From Chromatiales bacterium (lineage in GTDB: Bacteria; Pseudomonadota; Gammaproteobacteria; Steroidobacterales; GCA-2729495): a stretch of 64,000 bases of DNA. Under the pieces are notes generated by a model, which was not told the DNA's origin, searched no databases, and saw only the letters and a list, made by a program, of their open reading frames with translations. The translations under genes were made by a program, and so were the position numbers. This document shows, piece by piece, positions 36,991-44,587 of the stretch (its first letter is position 1; each line of letters starts with the position of its first letter). The stretch spans positions 1 through 64,000 of the forward strand of contig NZCC01000043.1 of NCBI GenBank assembly GCA_002688175.1, read 5' to 3'.

Positions 36991-37089
36991 TGATGTTTGA
37001 TTTGCCGGATCATATTGTAGATTTTCCTTAATCAGAAAGCTCCGTGTCGAAAAGCAGAGCTAATCCCTTGCTATAGCAGGGTCGATTAT

Positions 37090-37229
37090 GCATATTAGCC
37101 GCGGTTTGTGGGCAAACTCACTGAAAGGTGGGGACGCAAAGCTACCGGTCTAAGGGACTGTAAGGGCTGTGACGAGTTGGGATGTTGCGGCTGGGTCTGA
37201 ATCCTAGGACAGCGGGGTTGCCGATATGC
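37090..37229 (+). ncRNA. Cyclic di-GMP-I (GEMM) riboswitch aptamer, candidate, upstream of pilM
   Basis: GGCAAACTCACTGAAAGGTGGGGACGCAAAGCTACCGGTCTAAGG ... CCTAGGACAGCGGGGTTGCCG contains the conserved GGCAAAC, GAAA tetraloop, GGGACGCAAAGC, CUAA and AGCGGGGUUxCCG blocks; closing GCATAT/ATATGC helix. Confidence 0.9.
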
Positions 37230-37469
37230 GGGGTCTTAAGGGTCCGCGGCAGTCGCTTCTCTCCGGTCAGATTTTCCCGTACCGATCGTATTTTTGCGCT
37301 AGCAAAGTGTTGGCGAAGCGTTAGATATGCCCACTCGTTAGATATTTGGGTGGAAAAGTGTGAAGTAGTCGCAGTTCCTTTATATCCAGTTCGATATATA
37401 GTTAAATTGCCTATCTAAGGGACTTAACCATATTTTTTACGCAAGCTACGGACTTAGAAGGGAAAAAAA

Positions 37470-38531
37470 GTGCTTTTCGGGTCACGCTCAAAGCCTCTGA
37501 TCGGACTTGACATAACAACGTCATCGATCAAGTTGCTGGAATTAACAACGAGCGGTAAAACGCATCGAGCGGAGTGCTATGCCGCCGAAGCGACGCCGCC
37601 TAACTCTATTAATGAGAAGAGCATCGTCGATGCGGATGCGGTCGGCGAAGCGATTCGTCGTGCTGTTAAGCGTTCCGGATCAAAGGCACAGGATGTTGCA
37701 ATTGCTATCAGTGGTGATGCTGCAATTACCAAAGTTATTCAGATGCCGGCGAATCTTAGTGAGAATGACCTTGAGGGTCAGGTTGAGATTCAGGCGGATC
37801 AATATATTCCTTTCCCGATGGAAGAAGTCAGTTTTGATTTTGAGGTGATGGGACCGTCGGCAAATGATCCGGAGATGAACGATGTGTTGCTCGTTGCGAC
37901 ACGCACCGAGAATGTCGACCAAAGGTGTGCCGCTGTAGAGGCTGCTGGATTGACGGCCAGAGTTGTCGATGTTGAAGCATTCGCACTTGAAAATGCCTGT
38001 ACATTACTTTCACATCAGATGCCTGATGGCGGGCATGATCATTTGATTTCGATCGTCGATTTTGGTGCGAGTAATACCACGTTTAGCGTATTGCAGGATC
38101 TTCGTGTCATATATACCCGTGATTTCTCATTCGGCGGCCAGCAACTGACCGAAGAAATTATGCGCACCTACGGACTCAGTCTCGAAGATGCCGGTCGGGC
38201 CAAGAAAGAAGGCGGCTTGCCAAGTAACTATCAGCCTGAGGTGCTTGATCCGTTTATTGACGACATGACACAACAGGTCAGTCGCTCTATGCAGTTCTTC
38301 CTCGCTTCGGCGGGGGGTCGCGATCAGCCGGACCAGATTCTGGTACTCGGCGGTTGTGCGAATATTCCCGGTGTGGCAGATGTGATTTCCAGCAAAGTCG
38401 GGGTGTCGACGGAGGTTGGTGATCCCCTGGGCCACATGAAGGTCTCGTCAAAGGCGAAAGCACAGGGCGTGCGTGGAGATGCAACCGCACTGCTAACAGC
38501 CTTTGGTCTCGCGTTACGGAGTTTCGACTGA
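37470..38531 (+). CDS. pilM: Type IV pilus assembly protein PilM (GTG start)
   Basis: SKPLIGLDITTSSIKLLEL; IQADQYIPFPMEEVSFDFEV. Confidence 0.95.
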   Translation: MLFGSRSKPLIGLDITTSSIKLLELTTSGKTHRAECYAAEATPPNSINEKSIVDADAVGEAIRRAVKRSGSKAQDVAIAISGDAAITKVIQMPANLSENDLEGQVEIQADQYIPFPMEEVSFDFEVMGPSANDPEMNDVLLVATRTENVDQRCAAVEAAGLTARVVDVEAFALENACTLLSHQMPDGGHDHLISIVDFGASNTTFSVLQDLRVIYTRDFSFGGQQLTEEIMRTYGLSLEDAGRAKKEGGLPSNYQPEVLDPFIDDMTQQVSRSMQFFLASAGGRDQPDQILVLGGCANIPGVADVISSKVGVSTEVGDPLGHMKVSSKAKAQGVRGDATALLTAFGLALRSFD

Positions 38532-38532
38532 T

Positions 38533-39123
38533 ATGCCACGCATTAATCTATTGCCATGGCGTGATGAGCAAAGGACTGAACGCCGTAACCAGTTCTTTAT
38601 CGCGCTGGGTGCTGCTGCTCTCGCTGCCGCGTCGATTATTCTGATCGGCAACCTGACATTCGGCAGTATCATCGGTCACCAGCAAGATCGAAATCGAATG
38701 TTGCAGTCTGAAATCGATTTACTGAATATCAAAATCAAGGAAATTATTGATCTTGAAGATCAGAAGGATCGACTGCTGGCCAGAATGGAAATCATCGAAC
38801 AGTTGCAGCGCAGTCGTCCCGGCATCGTGCATGTTTTTGAGGAACTCGTCACGACGTTACCTAACGGTGTATTTCTGAATGAGGTCAAACAAAATGGCTC
38901 ACGAATAGAAATCGTCGGTTCAGCCGAGTCGAATACCCGGGTTTCGGCACTGATGCGTAATATTGACGGTTCCGACTGGTTGAGTTCGCCCGATCTGGAA
39001 GTCGTCGAGGTCAAACCCGGGGCTGAAGGCAGTGGCCGGCGCGCCAGTGAATTTACAGTTTTTGCCGAGTCACTGACGGCCAAAAAAGGTGAAGAGCAAG
39101 AAGTAGAGGAGGGATCAGAATGA
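38533..39123 (+). CDS. pilN: Type IV pilus assembly protein PilN
   Basis: MPRINLLPWRDEQRTERRNQFF. Confidence 0.95.
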   Translation: MPRINLLPWRDEQRTERRNQFFIALGAAALAAASIILIGNLTFGSIIGHQQDRNRMLQSEIDLLNIKIKEIIDLEDQKDRLLARMEIIEQLQRSRPGIVHVFEELVTTLPNGVFLNEVKQNGSRIEIVGSAESNTRVSALMRNIDGSDWLSSPDLEVVEVKPGAEGSGRRASEFTVFAESLTAKKGEEQEVEEGSE

Positions 39124-39743
39124 ACTTCCTCGAAGAACTGCAGAATCTGGATTTCAATGATATAGGCCGTTGGCCGCTGCTGTTTCGCGCATTGTTTGTC
39201 GGCCTGTTTTTTGTCATTGCTGCCAGCGGTGGGTTTTATTACTTTGTCTTCACCGCTCAGATGCCGCGACTCGAACGTGCCGAGCAGGAAGAACAGGAAT
39301 TGCGCACTTCATTTGAGCAGAAGCAGAAAAAGGCCGCTAACTTTTCTGCCTACAGGGAGCAACTCGCAGAGATCGAACGTTCCTTCGGTACGATGTTGCG
39401 CCAGTTGCCGGGTAAGACGGAGATTCCGAATTTACTGGTCGATATATCGCAAACAGGTCTGGCAGCCGGGTTGCTGGAAGAATTGTTCCAGCCGGTGGCT
39501 GAGTTGCAGAAAGATTTTTACGCTGAGAAGCCGATTAAGATTCGCCTGAAAGGCACCTATCATGAGTTTGGCCAGTTTGTCAGTGATATCGCCGCATTAC
39601 CGCGTATTGTGACGCTGCATGATATTGCCATTAAGCAGGCGCTTAGCGGTGCCGACTCAGGGAATGGCAAACTGATACTCAATGTTACGGCCAAGACCTA
39701 TCGCTATCTCGATGAAGACGCTGATGTGGAGAACGCAGGGTGA
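39120..39743 (+). CDS. pilO: Type IV pilus assembly protein PilO
   Basis: Order after pilN; LRQLPGKTEIPNLLVDISQTGLAAGL. Confidence 0.95.
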   Translation: MNFLEELQNLDFNDIGRWPLLFRALFVGLFFVIAASGGFYYFVFTAQMPRLERAEQEEQELRTSFEQKQKKAANFSAYREQLAEIERSFGTMLRQLPGKTEIPNLLVDISQTGLAAGLLEELFQPVAELQKDFYAEKPIKIRLKGTYHEFGQFVSDIAALPRIVTLHDIAIKQALSGADSGNGKLILNVTAKTYRYLDEDADVENAG

Positions 39744-40267
39744 CGGGCATGGAGCAAAGCATGCGGTTATTGGTCAGGTTGCCGGCGGTTTTGCTAGTGC
39801 TGGTACTGACGGCCTGTGGTGGCGGCATGGGTGACCTTGAGCAATATATCGCTGATGTCAAGCAGCGACCAGGCGGTCGTATCGAACCACTGCCGCAGAT
39901 CAAGCCATATGAGACATTTGATTATCAGGCCAGTAACAAGCGTTCGCCATTTGTGCGGGACCGGTCGGCCGATGAAAACGGAGTGATGAAGGGACCCACG
40001 CCGATCAAGAATCGTAATAAAGAATATCTTGAACAGTTTCCGCTGGACACCCTGAACATGGTTGGCACGCTGGAACGTGAAGGCAAGATTTATGGACTGG
40101 TGCAAACCAATGATGGATTGGTGCACCGTATTCTGCCGGGGAATTATGTCGGTCAGAATGATGGCCGCGTTATTTCTATAATGGATGGCAAGATTGAAAT
40201 TGAAGAACTGGTGTCGAATGGCATTGGAAATTTTTTCAAACGTAGTGCTGGGATTGGAATTGACTGA
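39740..40267 (+). CDS. pilP: Type IV pilus lipoprotein PilP
   Basis: LVLTACGGGMGDLEQYIADVK; LDTLNMVGTLEREGKIYGLVQTNDGLVHRILPGNYVGQNDGRV. Confidence 0.95.
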   Translation: MTGMEQSMRLLVRLPAVLLVLVLTACGGGMGDLEQYIADVKQRPGGRIEPLPQIKPYETFDYQASNKRSPFVRDRSADENGVMKGPTPIKNRNKEYLEQFPLDTLNMVGTLEREGKIYGLVQTNDGLVHRILPGNYVGQNDGRVISIMDGKIEIEELVSNGIGNFFKRSAGIGID

Positions 40268-40350
40268 TTATTTAACCGGAAATCGTTAGATCTCCGGGCC
40301 GATTGATTGAACGACAGGCGCCCTGGGCGGGGGTTTGGGAGTACTTGAGA

Positions 40351-42561
40351 ATGAGCACAGTTAGGCCGAATCGGAACTTTATCAGCAGGCACGCGCGTGC
40401 AGTCGGCGTCGGCCGCCTGTTGATGAGTTTGTATTGTGTCATCGCCTTCGGACTGGCCGCAGTCTCTGCTGCGACAGCTGAGGATGCGCCAAATAGTCTC
40501 GATGACATCGAGGTACGCGCACTCCCAGGTAATCGCATTGAACTCAGGTTGGTGACCTCTGGTAATGCGCCTGAGCCATTGGCTTTTACGATCGATGAGC
40601 CGGCACGTATTGCGATTGATCTGCGCGATACGGTACTGGGTCTGAAGTCACGACGTAAAGATGTGGGTATTGGTGCTCTCGACACAATTTTGGCTGCTGA
40701 AGCCAACGGGCGTACACGAGTTGTTCTGAATTTAGATGTTTCAGTCGGCTACCAGACCCGCGTTGAAGGCAACAGCATCCTGGTTACACTCGATAGTGTG
40801 GCGGGCAGTGGAGCATCCGCCATAGCTGTGGCGCCGACCCTGATACCGAAAAAAGCCTCAGAGAGCAGCGCGATTGCCGCGCGGTCGATCGAAAGTATTG
40901 ATTTTCGGCGCACTGAAGCCGGGGCCGGCCGACTTATAGTCAAATTGTCTGATGTCGGTACAGCGATTGATGTCCAGCGTACGGCCAACCAGGTGGTATT
41001 GAATTTTATCGGCACCGATTTGCCCAGTTCATTGATGAAGCGACTCGATGTTCTGGATTTCGCGACACCAGTGACGACCATCGACACCATGCGCGTGGGT
41101 AACAATACCCGCATCGTGTTATCGGCTACAGGCAGTTTCGCCGAACTGGCCTACCAGTCTGACTTTATCTTCAGTGTCGAGGTGCAACCGGTTTTAGAGG
41201 ATAAGAAAAAGGAAGTTGCGCCAACATTATTCAGTCCTGATCATGTCTATGAAGGCGAACGACTGACACTCAATTTTCAGGATATCGAGACTCGTGCGGT
41301 ATTGCAGTTACTGGCTGATGTCAGCGGCCGCAACATCGTGGTTTCGGATACAGTTCAGGGCAATGTTACCTTGCGTCTGCAGGGCGTGCCGTGGGATCAG
41401 GCACTGGACATTGTGCTGGCCACCAAGGGTCTGGATATGCGCCAGAACGGCAACGTTATTATCGTTGCCCCGGCTGAAGAAATATCGGCACGCGAACTTG
41501 CCGATCTCGAATCGCGCAAAGAGATCAGTGAGCTTGAACCACTGGTGGCCGAGTATGTGCAGGTCAACTATGCGAAGGCCAGTGACCTGGCCGAGCTGAT
41601 TTCCGGCGGTAGCGGCGGCACCGCATTGCTATCGGATCGCGGTTCAGTGGGTATCGATGATCGTACCAATACACTGTTGTTGCAGGATACGATCGAAAGT
41701 ATTGCCTCGATCCGCAGACTGGTAGCGACACTCGATATTCCCGTACGCCAGGTGTTGATCGAATCACGGATCGTTATCGTGAATGATGACTTCAGCCGTG
41801 ACCTGGGTATTCGTTGGGGCGCGACCGTTGTCAAGGAGAGTGGCGGCGGTGTGTATACGACGACCGGTCGGTCCACCGGTACGGACAGTATGATCAATGA
41901 TGCCGCGGATAACATTAATGCGGGCGGCTCGCCGTTCCCGGTTGCTATCCCCAGCCTTGATGACCGGTTTAACATCAACTTGCCGGTGGCCAATCCTGCC
42001 GGCCAGTTCGCGCTTGCGATTCTCGATGATGATTACCTGATTGATCTCGAATTGTCCGCGCTGCAGGCTGAGGGCCGCGGCGAGGTCATCTCGTCACCGC
42101 GTGTCATTACAGCCAATCAGAAGGAAGCGACCATTAAAGAGGGTGTAGAGATTCCGTACCAGGAATCTTCATCCAGCGGCGCGACCACCACCCAGTTCAA
42201 GGAAGCGGTGCTGAGCCTGACGGTGACGCCGCAAATTACCCCGGATGACCGGATCATCATGGACCTGCTGGTGACCAAAGACAGCGTCGGTGAGACCGTG
42301 ACGACCGAGCGTGGTGGCTCCGTACCGAGTATCGATACGCGTTCGATAGAGACGCAGGTACTGGTTAACAACGGACAGACTGTCGTGCTTGGTGGGATCT
42401 ATGAAACTGAACAGAGGGAAACTGTGACCAAGGTACCGTTCTTCGGCGATATTCCGTTCCTGGGCGTGATGTTCAGGTCTACGCGGGTGAACTCTGAAAA
42501 ATCGGAACTATTGATTTTCGTGACGCCAAAAATACTAAAAGAAGGCTCGAGCATTTATTAA
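40351..42561 (+). CDS. pilQ: Type IV pilus secretin PilQ
   Basis: AMIN-like N-domain, secretin/STN domains; VLIESRIVIVNDDFSRDLGIRWG; VLGGIYETEQRETVTKVPFFGDIPFLG. Confidence 0.96.
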   Translation: MSTVRPNRNFISRHARAVGVGRLLMSLYCVIAFGLAAVSAATAEDAPNSLDDIEVRALPGNRIELRLVTSGNAPEPLAFTIDEPARIAIDLRDTVLGLKSRRKDVGIGALDTILAAEANGRTRVVLNLDVSVGYQTRVEGNSILVTLDSVAGSGASAIAVAPTLIPKKASESSAIAARSIESIDFRRTEAGAGRLIVKLSDVGTAIDVQRTANQVVLNFIGTDLPSSLMKRLDVLDFATPVTTIDTMRVGNNTRIVLSATGSFAELAYQSDFIFSVEVQPVLEDKKKEVAPTLFSPDHVYEGERLTLNFQDIETRAVLQLLADVSGRNIVVSDTVQGNVTLRLQGVPWDQALDIVLATKGLDMRQNGNVIIVAPAEEISARELADLESRKEISELEPLVAEYVQVNYAKASDLAELISGGSGGTALLSDRGSVGIDDRTNTLLLQDTIESIASIRRLVATLDIPVRQVLIESRIVIVNDDFSRDLGIRWGATVVKESGGGVYTTTGRSTGTDSMINDAADNINAGGSPFPVAIPSLDDRFNINLPVANPAGQFALAILDDDYLIDLELSALQAEGRGEVISSPRVITANQKEATIKEGVEIPYQESSSSGATTTQFKEAVLSLTVTPQITPDDRIIMDLLVTKDSVGETVTTERGGSVPSIDTRSIETQVLVNNGQTVVLGGIYETEQRETVTKVPFFGDIPFLGVMFRSTRVNSEKSELLIFVTPKILKEGSSIY

Positions 42562-42601: not shown

Positions 42602-44587
42602 ATGAATAAGCTGCTTGCTTTCGGATTGGTATTAGTGGCCGCATTGACCGCATCTTGCGGTGGTAGTAGTGATAATTCGTTGCTTGATCCCAGTGGGGGA
42701 ACGACGGAAACTAGCGTCGATTCGATCCGCCTGTATACGAGTTCTCCACAGTTGCCATCCGATAGTACTGGTGTGGATAGGCTGACGCTGACCGCATTAG
42801 TTCTGGATATTAATGGTACGACGCTAGAAAATATTCCGGTTACTTTCAGTAAGCCGCTTACCGATCCGGGTTTTATCAACGTGCTAGTTCCACTGTCAGG
42901 TCCGAGCGGCGCTCAGGCCGAGTTTTCAAATGGAATAGGAACGCCGCAGAATCGTACTGTCTTGTTGACTGCAACGGCGCTGACTACTGGGGGCAGTAGC
43001 GTATCGGCTCAGGTATCAGTTGACATTATCGGGACAGATATTGTTATAACTGGTCCGGAAGCACTTGCACTAAATGATACGGGTGATTACATAGCAGTAT
43101 TGACTGACTCAAAAGGTATTGGAGTGGGCGGTCAGTTATTGACGGTAGATTCGGCACTGAGCAATACAGTTGCTGCAACGAACCTGACAACAGATCCAAC
43201 AGGAAAAATTGATTATCAGGTGACTGCTACCCAAGTGGGTTTGGATACGTTGACGGTCGGTGGGCTTGGAGTCAGCAAGGACAAGCCTCTCAATGTTTCG
43301 AATGATACTTTTGCTTTCGTGACACCAGCAGCTGATGCGGAAATATTGCTTGGTACGACTGCAGATGAGGCTGTCACAATAAACTGGACAATTGCCGGTG
43401 TCCCTCAAGTAGGCAAACAGATTAACTTCACATCGACACGTGGAGCTTTGTCTAGTGTTCAGGGTCCGGCGGCAATAGTCCCCGTAACGACTGTGATCAC
43501 TGATGCCAGTGGTAATGCCACATTATATATAGGCTCAACAAATTCTGGTACAGCATTATTAAGCGCAACCATTGATGAAAACGGTACGACAACAACTCGG
43601 AATATTGAATTTATTTCGGTCAGCCCGGATACGCTGAATTTGCAGGCTGGTAAGTTTACTGTTCCTGTCAATGAGCAAACTGAAATTGTTGCCACGGTAC
43701 GTGATGTAGATTTTAATTTTGTAAAAAATCAAATTATTAATTTTGTGCTCGTCAATGATATTACTGGAGGGTTTCTGAGTCCTGCCTCAGCAACTACCGG
43801 TAGTGATGGTAAGGCGGCAATTTTCTATACGGCCGGATCGGACTCGGGTCCGACGAATGGAGTAGAAATCCGGGCAGAGGTTGTATCCAATACGACTGTA
43901 AATGATACCGTGCAGTTGACGGTAGCGAGTAAGGAGCTTGACCTGGTTATTGGTACTGGAAATGATATTTTTGAACCAACAACGGCCTCTTTTGCGCAAG
44001 AGTGGAATATTTTCGTAACAGATGCTGTTGGAAATGCCGTTCAAAATAAGGATGTTCAAGTTGCGATTCGGTCCATGGAATATATAAAAGGGCAATTAGT
44101 AGTATTAACTGGGGCTACTTCATGGGCCAAAGTAGCGCCTATTTCCATATGTGCTGATGAGGATGCAAACAGAAATGGCATTCTTGATATCGCACTAGGT
44201 GAAGATCTTGTTAACAGTTCAGGTCAAATTGAGGCTGGTAATGTCGCTTTGGTGGCTCCGGTACCGGATACAGCACCTGCAACTGATCCATGTGCAACTG
44301 CTGGTGCCAGTGGGGTTTCAGCGCAGGCAACCACCAATGCCCAGGGTATTGCACGTGTTTGTGTGTTTTGGCCACAGGATCACAGTTGGTGGGTGAATGT
44401 GCAGATTGAAGCACAGGCGGGTGTGTCAGGCAGTGAGTTCAGCGCGCAACAAGTTTTTGAATTACCTGCTTTGGCAGTGGACATTAATACTACAACTGTT
44501 GCTCCACCAAACAGGGTAAGCCCTTATGGAATTCCGACTATAGCCGGTGATTGCTCTGAGCCACCGCCGGGGTTGCCACTGCCCTAG
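42602..44587 (+). CDS. Lipoprotein with repeated bacterial Ig-like (Big_1/invasin-like) domains
   Basis: LTASCGG lipobox; repeated segments such as LTALVLDINGTTLENIPVTFS, VTTVITDASGNATLYIGSTNSGTALLSATI, TTGSDGKAAIFYTAG. Confidence 0.8.
   Translation: MNKLLAFGLVLVAALTASCGGSSDNSLLDPSGGTTETSVDSIRLYTSSPQLPSDSTGVDRLTLTALVLDINGTTLENIPVTFSKPLTDPGFINVLVPLSGPSGAQAEFSNGIGTPQNRTVLLTATALTTGGSSVSAQVSVDIIGTDIVITGPEALALNDTGDYIAVLTDSKGIGVGGQLLTVDSALSNTVAATNLTTDPTGKIDYQVTATQVGLDTLTVGGLGVSKDKPLNVSNDTFAFVTPAADAEILLGTTADEAVTINWTIAGVPQVGKQINFTSTRGALSSVQGPAAIVPVTTVITDASGNATLYIGSTNSGTALLSATIDENGTTTTRNIEFISVSPDTLNLQAGKFTVPVNEQTEIVATVRDVDFNFVKNQIINFVLVNDITGGFLSPASATTGSDGKAAIFYTAGSDSGPTNGVEIRAEVVSNTTVNDTVQLTVASKELDLVIGTGNDIFEPTTASFAQEWNIFVTDAVGNAVQNKDVQVAIRSMEYIKGQLVVLTGATSWAKVAPISICADEDANRNGILDIALGEDLVNSSGQIEAGNVALVAPVPDTAPATDPCATAGASGVSAQATTNAQGIARVCVFWPQDHSWWVNVQIEAQAGVSGSEFSAQQVFELPALAVDINTTTVAPPNRVSPYGIPTIAGDCSEPPPGLPLP

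Follow-up and report, generated by a model that had tools for sequence, protein, structure and literature searches.

Control of type IV pili by c-di-GMP is usually traced to c-di-GMP-binding proteins, MshE-type ATPases reportedly being one such case. The locus studied here raises the question whether the expression of the pilus machine itself may be placed under c-di-GMP by an RNA, and if so in which direction. It lies in a 64-kb stretch of DNA, the whole of which we call the window, from the MAG of an uncultured gammaproteobacterium, which measures 2.6 Mb and is ~81% complete.

Identity of the aptamer and its long P3 arm

The preliminary description had assigned the RNA to the c-di-GMP-I (GEMM-I) family and proposed an Infernal search with Rfam models as the check. 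Our cmscan search against all of Rfam 15 returned a single match at gathering level in the window, which belongs to this family (RF01051), covers model positions 1-87 of 87 and scores well above the gathering score of 35. The features of the aptamer are as follows.

37101-37225, + strand: c-di-GMP-I (GEMM-I) riboswitch aptamer (RF01051, 67.3 bits, E 5.1e-11)
37111, + strand: equivalent of G20 of Vc2, the ligand selectivity base (model position 11)
37117-37132, + strand: P2 hairpin with a GAAA tetraloop at 37123-37126 (cmscan structure line; compensatory changes at 4 pairs)
37156-37202, + strand: family-specific extension of the P3 arm, with an inner hairpin at 37165-37192 (fold; chimera permutation test)

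Two details of the preliminary description are found again within the match, namely the GAAA tetraloop closed by CACU/GGUG (37119-37130) and the conserved 3' block CUAGGACAGCGGGGUUGCCG. P2 with its GNRA tetraloop and the P3 receptor arm are both present. By model position, the ligand pocket would be formed by the equivalents of G20 (G at 37111), A47 (A at 37138) and C92 (C at 37222); for A47 and C92 we assume the numbering of Vc2. The full-length match, the GAAA P2, the conserved junction, the 3' block and these three bases are shared with the Vc2 type of RF01051, from which the window differs in its P3 arm, where 42 nt are inserted and form a hairpin of their own. Plain free-energy folding of the aptamer is uninformative as evidence (z -0.95). 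The RNA ahead of pilMNOPQ starts with a genuine c-di-GMP-family aptamer.

The arm had been described as unusually long, at about 45 nt. Between CUAAGG (37150-37155) and CCUAGG (37203-37208) it measures 47 nt, of which 42 are scored by Rfam as insertion, and its length is conserved in relatives. Among 13 mutually distinct sequences from the family, native halves of the arm fold ~5 kcal/mol better than cross-species chimeras (0/20000 permutations were as good), which argues that the extension is structured. The long inner hairpin also appears in most individual folds of the family's leaders. All pilM aptamers of the family but one (108 nt) have a long P3 arm, and the extension is absent or far shorter in the pilM leaders of other families of the order. 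Among the pilM leaders seen, only this family has such an arm, a structured hairpin that shows compensatory change.

The A at position 20 expected of GEMM-Ib is absent: the window has G there, as do all 24 aligned leaders. Because the selectivity base is G, c-di-GMP is the expected ligand, and the aptamer should bind it rather than cGAMP. It would be very surprising if the aptamer, like the GEMM-Ib switches found before pilM in Geobacter, sensed 3',3'-cGAMP. The Geobacter target is the same operon, and position 20 is a selectivity factor rather than an absolute filter, GEMM-I aptamers being able to bind both ligands (PMC9262584). However, the selectivity position is G in 24/24 aligned leaders, and the exchange A20G turns a cGAMP-selective Geobacter GEMM-Ib switch toward c-di-GMP (PMC6456294). 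The genome encodes 14 GGDEF domains.

The genome has six RF01051 matches. The five other than the one ahead of pilM (L001, L002, L004, L005, L006) are found with a FAD-binding oxidoreductase, with a membrane protein, with an M23 peptidase beside a secA-like gene, at a contig end and with a putative exported protein, which looks PEP-CTERM-like by eye and is followed by a TPR protein.

The pilM operon and the distribution of its riboswitch

The downstream operon had been named as pilMNOPQ, and the family assignments agree with this. The same operon follows in relatives.

37458-37472, + strand: Shine-Dalgarno AAGGG and GTG start of pilM (AGAAGGGAAAA...GTG, conserved in relatives)
37470-38531, + strand: pilM (TIGR01175, 366 bits)
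38533-39123, + strand: pilN, start codon uncertain, with an alternative ORF start TTG at 38503 (PF05137)
39120-39743, + strand: pilO (PF04350)
39740-40267, + strand: pilP (PF04351)
40303-42561, + strand: pilQ secretin, start codon uncertain (TIGR02515, 537 bits)

The aptamer is on the same strand as pilM, with ~245 nt between its end and the GTG, and the synteny is conserved. A divergent PBP1a gene lies upstream of the aptamer. Matches to the Rfam family asponA in relatives were rejected, as they are below threshold and overlap the divergent ponA region. Between pilQ and aroK the window has a gene for an Ig-like (Big_1) protein of 661 aa with a lipoprotein-like start (42602-44587); aroK is followed by aroB, the latter named by position and translation.

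The aptamer is found upstream of pilM in 25/30 pilM loci of the family including the window (24/29 others), and all of these Rfam matches are to RF01051 except for one to RF03167. The five loci without a match comprise four of one genus (L135, L136, L137, L142) and one of another (L145), and two relatives of the former still carry the aptamer. All five leaders keep the distal GATTATGCAT block, with the aptamer region degenerate and below Rfam detection. These members of the family have apparently lost the riboswitch and kept the operon. In other families of the order, 6/25 pilM loci scanned have an aptamer, which is compact (84-100 nt), has the orientation of the gene and lies 268-332 nt ahead of it, and one further contig (L108) also has one before pilM. 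Relatives within the order keep the aptamer before the same operon, so the switch is probably tied to pilus building.

More widely, c-di-GMP-I riboswitches occur in 82/100 related genomes, and RF01051 was matched in 31/184 genomes sampled from the class. By comparison of contigs and coordinates, RF01051 adjoins pilM only in the source genome among the listed matches of these 184 genomes, a comparison that is a sample and not proof of absence since some pilM matches are unlisted or split over contigs. One genome of the same order (G046) has 21 RF01051 matches in 4.7 Mb, many of ~110-114 nt, suggesting amplified riboswitch copies.

The Woeseiaceae pilM loci tested gave no Rfam riboswitch match, and for five of them this held with permissive thresholds too. 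Leaders of this type (L070:4640-4890, L085, L094, L100, L111, L116 and others) have a different conserved block, AAUGUGGC..GGCA....CCGAUGAUAG....GCAAU, which lies downstream of the distal GATTATGCAT, in leaders that retain it, and upstream of the CRP-like site described below. RNAalifold predicts no pairs in this block, which may therefore act at the DNA level.

Promoter-like blocks and a competing hairpin

The DNA between the PBP1a gene and pilM contains further conserved elements.

37067-37096, + strand: distal promoter-like block, with a -35 TTGCTA (37068-37073), a 17-nt spacer and a -10 CATATT (37091-37096) (conserved block)
37207-37260, + strand: anti-aptamer hairpin, pairing the aptamer 3' strand 37207-37222 with 37248-37260 (folds; covariation test)
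37359-37373, + strand: CRP/Vfr-like operator TGTGA-N5-TCGCA, degenerate in the window (leader alignment; scan of 80 pilM loci)
37393-37407, + strand: putative proximal -10 region GATATATAGTTAAAT (TATAGT, 37397-37402) with a start at ~37409 (conserved)

The block CTTGC-N12-GATTATGCAT precedes the aptamer by a constant distance in 25 leaders, with 1 nt more in one of them, and it recurs in other families, degenerate in some. Its sequence has the form of a sigma-70-like promoter, TTGCTA-N17-CATATT, from which transcription is predicted to start at ~37101-37105, about where the Rfam match begins. We considered the block as a regulon promoter used elsewhere in the genome and rejected this, as there is just one exact match. 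If the promoter reading is correct, GCATAT would not be transcribed. The preliminary description had placed this hexamer in an outer helix with ATATGC, and this part does not hold: all six pairs are possible in just 2/25 homologous leaders, and GCATAT belongs to the promoter-like block at conserved spacing to the aptamer.

Closer to the gene, most relatives have GTGA-N6-TCAC ~111 nt before the pilM start codon, and TATATAGTTAAAT is kept ~74 nt (-74/-75) from the same codon at almost every pilM locus of the family and of the Woeseiaceae. This layout is similar to that of class II CRP promoters, and a CRP equivalog is encoded in the genome (NF008732, 313 bits, cut-off 266). These observations point to a second, CRP-like promoter downstream of the aptamer and ahead of pilM, in which case c-di-GMP and cAMP may act on this gene as separate inputs. 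With such a promoter in between, part of pilMNOPQ expression could escape the switch. The earlier statement that the aptamer controls the operon stands as far as its conserved position in cis is concerned, but the control may be partial.

This raises the question whether the riboswitch matters at all. It could be vestigial or minor, with the CRP promoter driving pilMNOPQ and the distal leader adding little. The proximal block is indeed conserved far more widely than the aptamer, being found in the Woeseiaceae and in most family members without aptamer, and recognisable aptamers have been lost at the five loci named above. Yet clear purifying selection acts on the aptamer core, the spacing of the distal block and the P3 arm in the other 25 leaders, and we regard a vestigial riboswitch as distinctly improbable.

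How the riboswitch might act is suggested by a hairpin that competes with the aptamer. Its pairing encloses a small hairpin and captures the C92 equivalent at 37222 (paired with p 0.96 in the window), and similar folds are found in most relatives. Among 23 distinct leaders, from which similar sequences were removed, shared ancestry being otherwise uncorrected, the hairpin becomes less stable when the variable 7 nt of its aptamer strand are exchanged for those of other species (p 0.024, 0.0033 and 0.0003 for three lengths of the folded segment). A displaced control using DNA 110 nt further downstream gives no swap effect (p 0.87, 0.98). The whole-strand swap test gives p 0.001, and a short-duplex covariation test is weaker than these fold-based tests (p 0.086). 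Taken whole, the aptamer strand pairs with the sequence downstream only modestly more than shuffled controls do (mean 0.74 vs 0.64). The covariation support applies to the family level, because the window's own variable segment fits the anti-strand poorly (rank 9 of 10).

The expression platform may be unusual. There is no intrinsic terminator in the window leader, scattered weak candidates being found in 4/25 leaders; C shows no clear excess over G in the leaders as a Rho signature (C/G ~0.85-1.7); and no conserved helix masking the RBS or acting as an anti-Shine-Dalgarno was seen. In the three species of the genus we noticed UUUUCCC (~37276-37285) as a candidate anti-Shine-Dalgarno for GGGAAAA. 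The sign of the switch is read indirectly because neither an intrinsic terminator nor an RBS-masking helix was found; it is most likely ON, by analogy with the Geobacter pilM terminator, which likewise captures the ligand-pairing C.

The best explanation overall, to which we give a probability of roughly 0.6, is a c-di-GMP-I ON switch on a distal pilMNOPQ transcript, together with a proximal CRP-like promoter. The distal promoter would produce a ~370-nt leader with the riboswitch at its 5' end. Bound c-di-GMP would hold the 3' strand of the aptamer in the P3/ligand-pocket fold; when ligand is absent, the same strand, including the ligand-pairing C, would enter the downstream anti-aptamer hairpin, as folding and covariation suggest. 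The anti-aptamer state would most likely lower read-through into pilM, and this could happen without a canonical intrinsic terminator, perhaps via Rho or pausing. The proximal promoter and its operator, judged by the conserved sequence and the CRP gene, would add c-di-GMP-independent, cAMP-responsive expression.

The opposite sign is conceivable and in our view unlikely. c-di-GMP would then lower pilMNOPQ expression, with the anti-aptamer hairpin as an antiterminator or pause-preventing fold and the bound state exposing a downstream termination signal. OFF-type c-di-GMP-I switches do exist, as Cd1 of C. difficile (PMC9262584), and according to the folds the leader runs on for ~240 nt past the aptamer with further hairpins, where such a signal could lie. 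Against this, comparison of relatives showed no conserved strand further downstream that competes for the anti-aptamer strand, and in most leaders no intrinsic terminator was found. In taking up the ligand-pairing C, the hairpin is also similar to the ON-type switch ahead of Geobacter pilM.

A highly speculative reading is that, in this order of Gammaproteobacteria, c-di-GMP and cAMP signals are combined at a single pilus operon by means of two stacked promoters. Here the riboswitch would work without canonical terminator or RBS masking, and c-di-GMP-gated transcription of the leader would feed or interfere with the CRP-dependent promoter that it overruns.

Comparison with known systems

The RNA class and riboswitch-controlled pili are already known. 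What is new here is the order-specific target, the family-specific arm and possibly an unusual output. Searches of the open-access literature, outside which most subscription papers lie, turned up no account of a c-di-GMP-I riboswitch ahead of a gammaproteobacterial pilMNOPQ, and Rfam alignments or comparative surveys may already list such loci. Across the order, RNA appears to link the expression of the pilus machine itself to c-di-GMP, and the aptamer probably couples pilus building to the attach-or-swim signal of the cell. The arrangement adjoins a conserved cAMP-type promoter and gives a concrete example, open to experiment, of a pilus operon on which two second messengers converge.

It also parallels the pilM cGAMP riboswitch of Geobacter, in another phylum. 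In G. metallireducens this switch is ON and its terminator captures the ligand-pairing C75 (PMC9262584), and in a G. sulfurreducens gacA mutant the pilMNOP genes fall 2-3 fold (PMC6456294). Both systems have a GEMM-I aptamer directly upstream of pilM and a downstream strand that takes the ligand-pairing C (PMC9262584; PMC6456294). In the Geobacter GEMM-Ib switch the ligand is cGAMP and the alternative hairpin is an intrinsic terminator, whereas the window has G as the selectivity base and no U-tract, a P3 arm ~40 nt longer and a CRP-like promoter that follows. The two cases may have arisen separately.

The pilus riboswitch of C. difficile offers a second comparison. In the account of Bordeleau 2015 given in PMC6200980, it is likewise a c-di-GMP riboswitch with positive control of type IV pili. 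Its aptamer is of class II, with a different structure, and the host is Gram-positive. In P. aeruginosa, expression of pilMNOPQ is Vfr/cAMP-dependent (PMC12533971). The operon is the same, and so would be the control by the CRP family if GTGA-N6-TCAC is a CRP site; unlike P. aeruginosa, the window has a c-di-GMP riboswitch added upstream.
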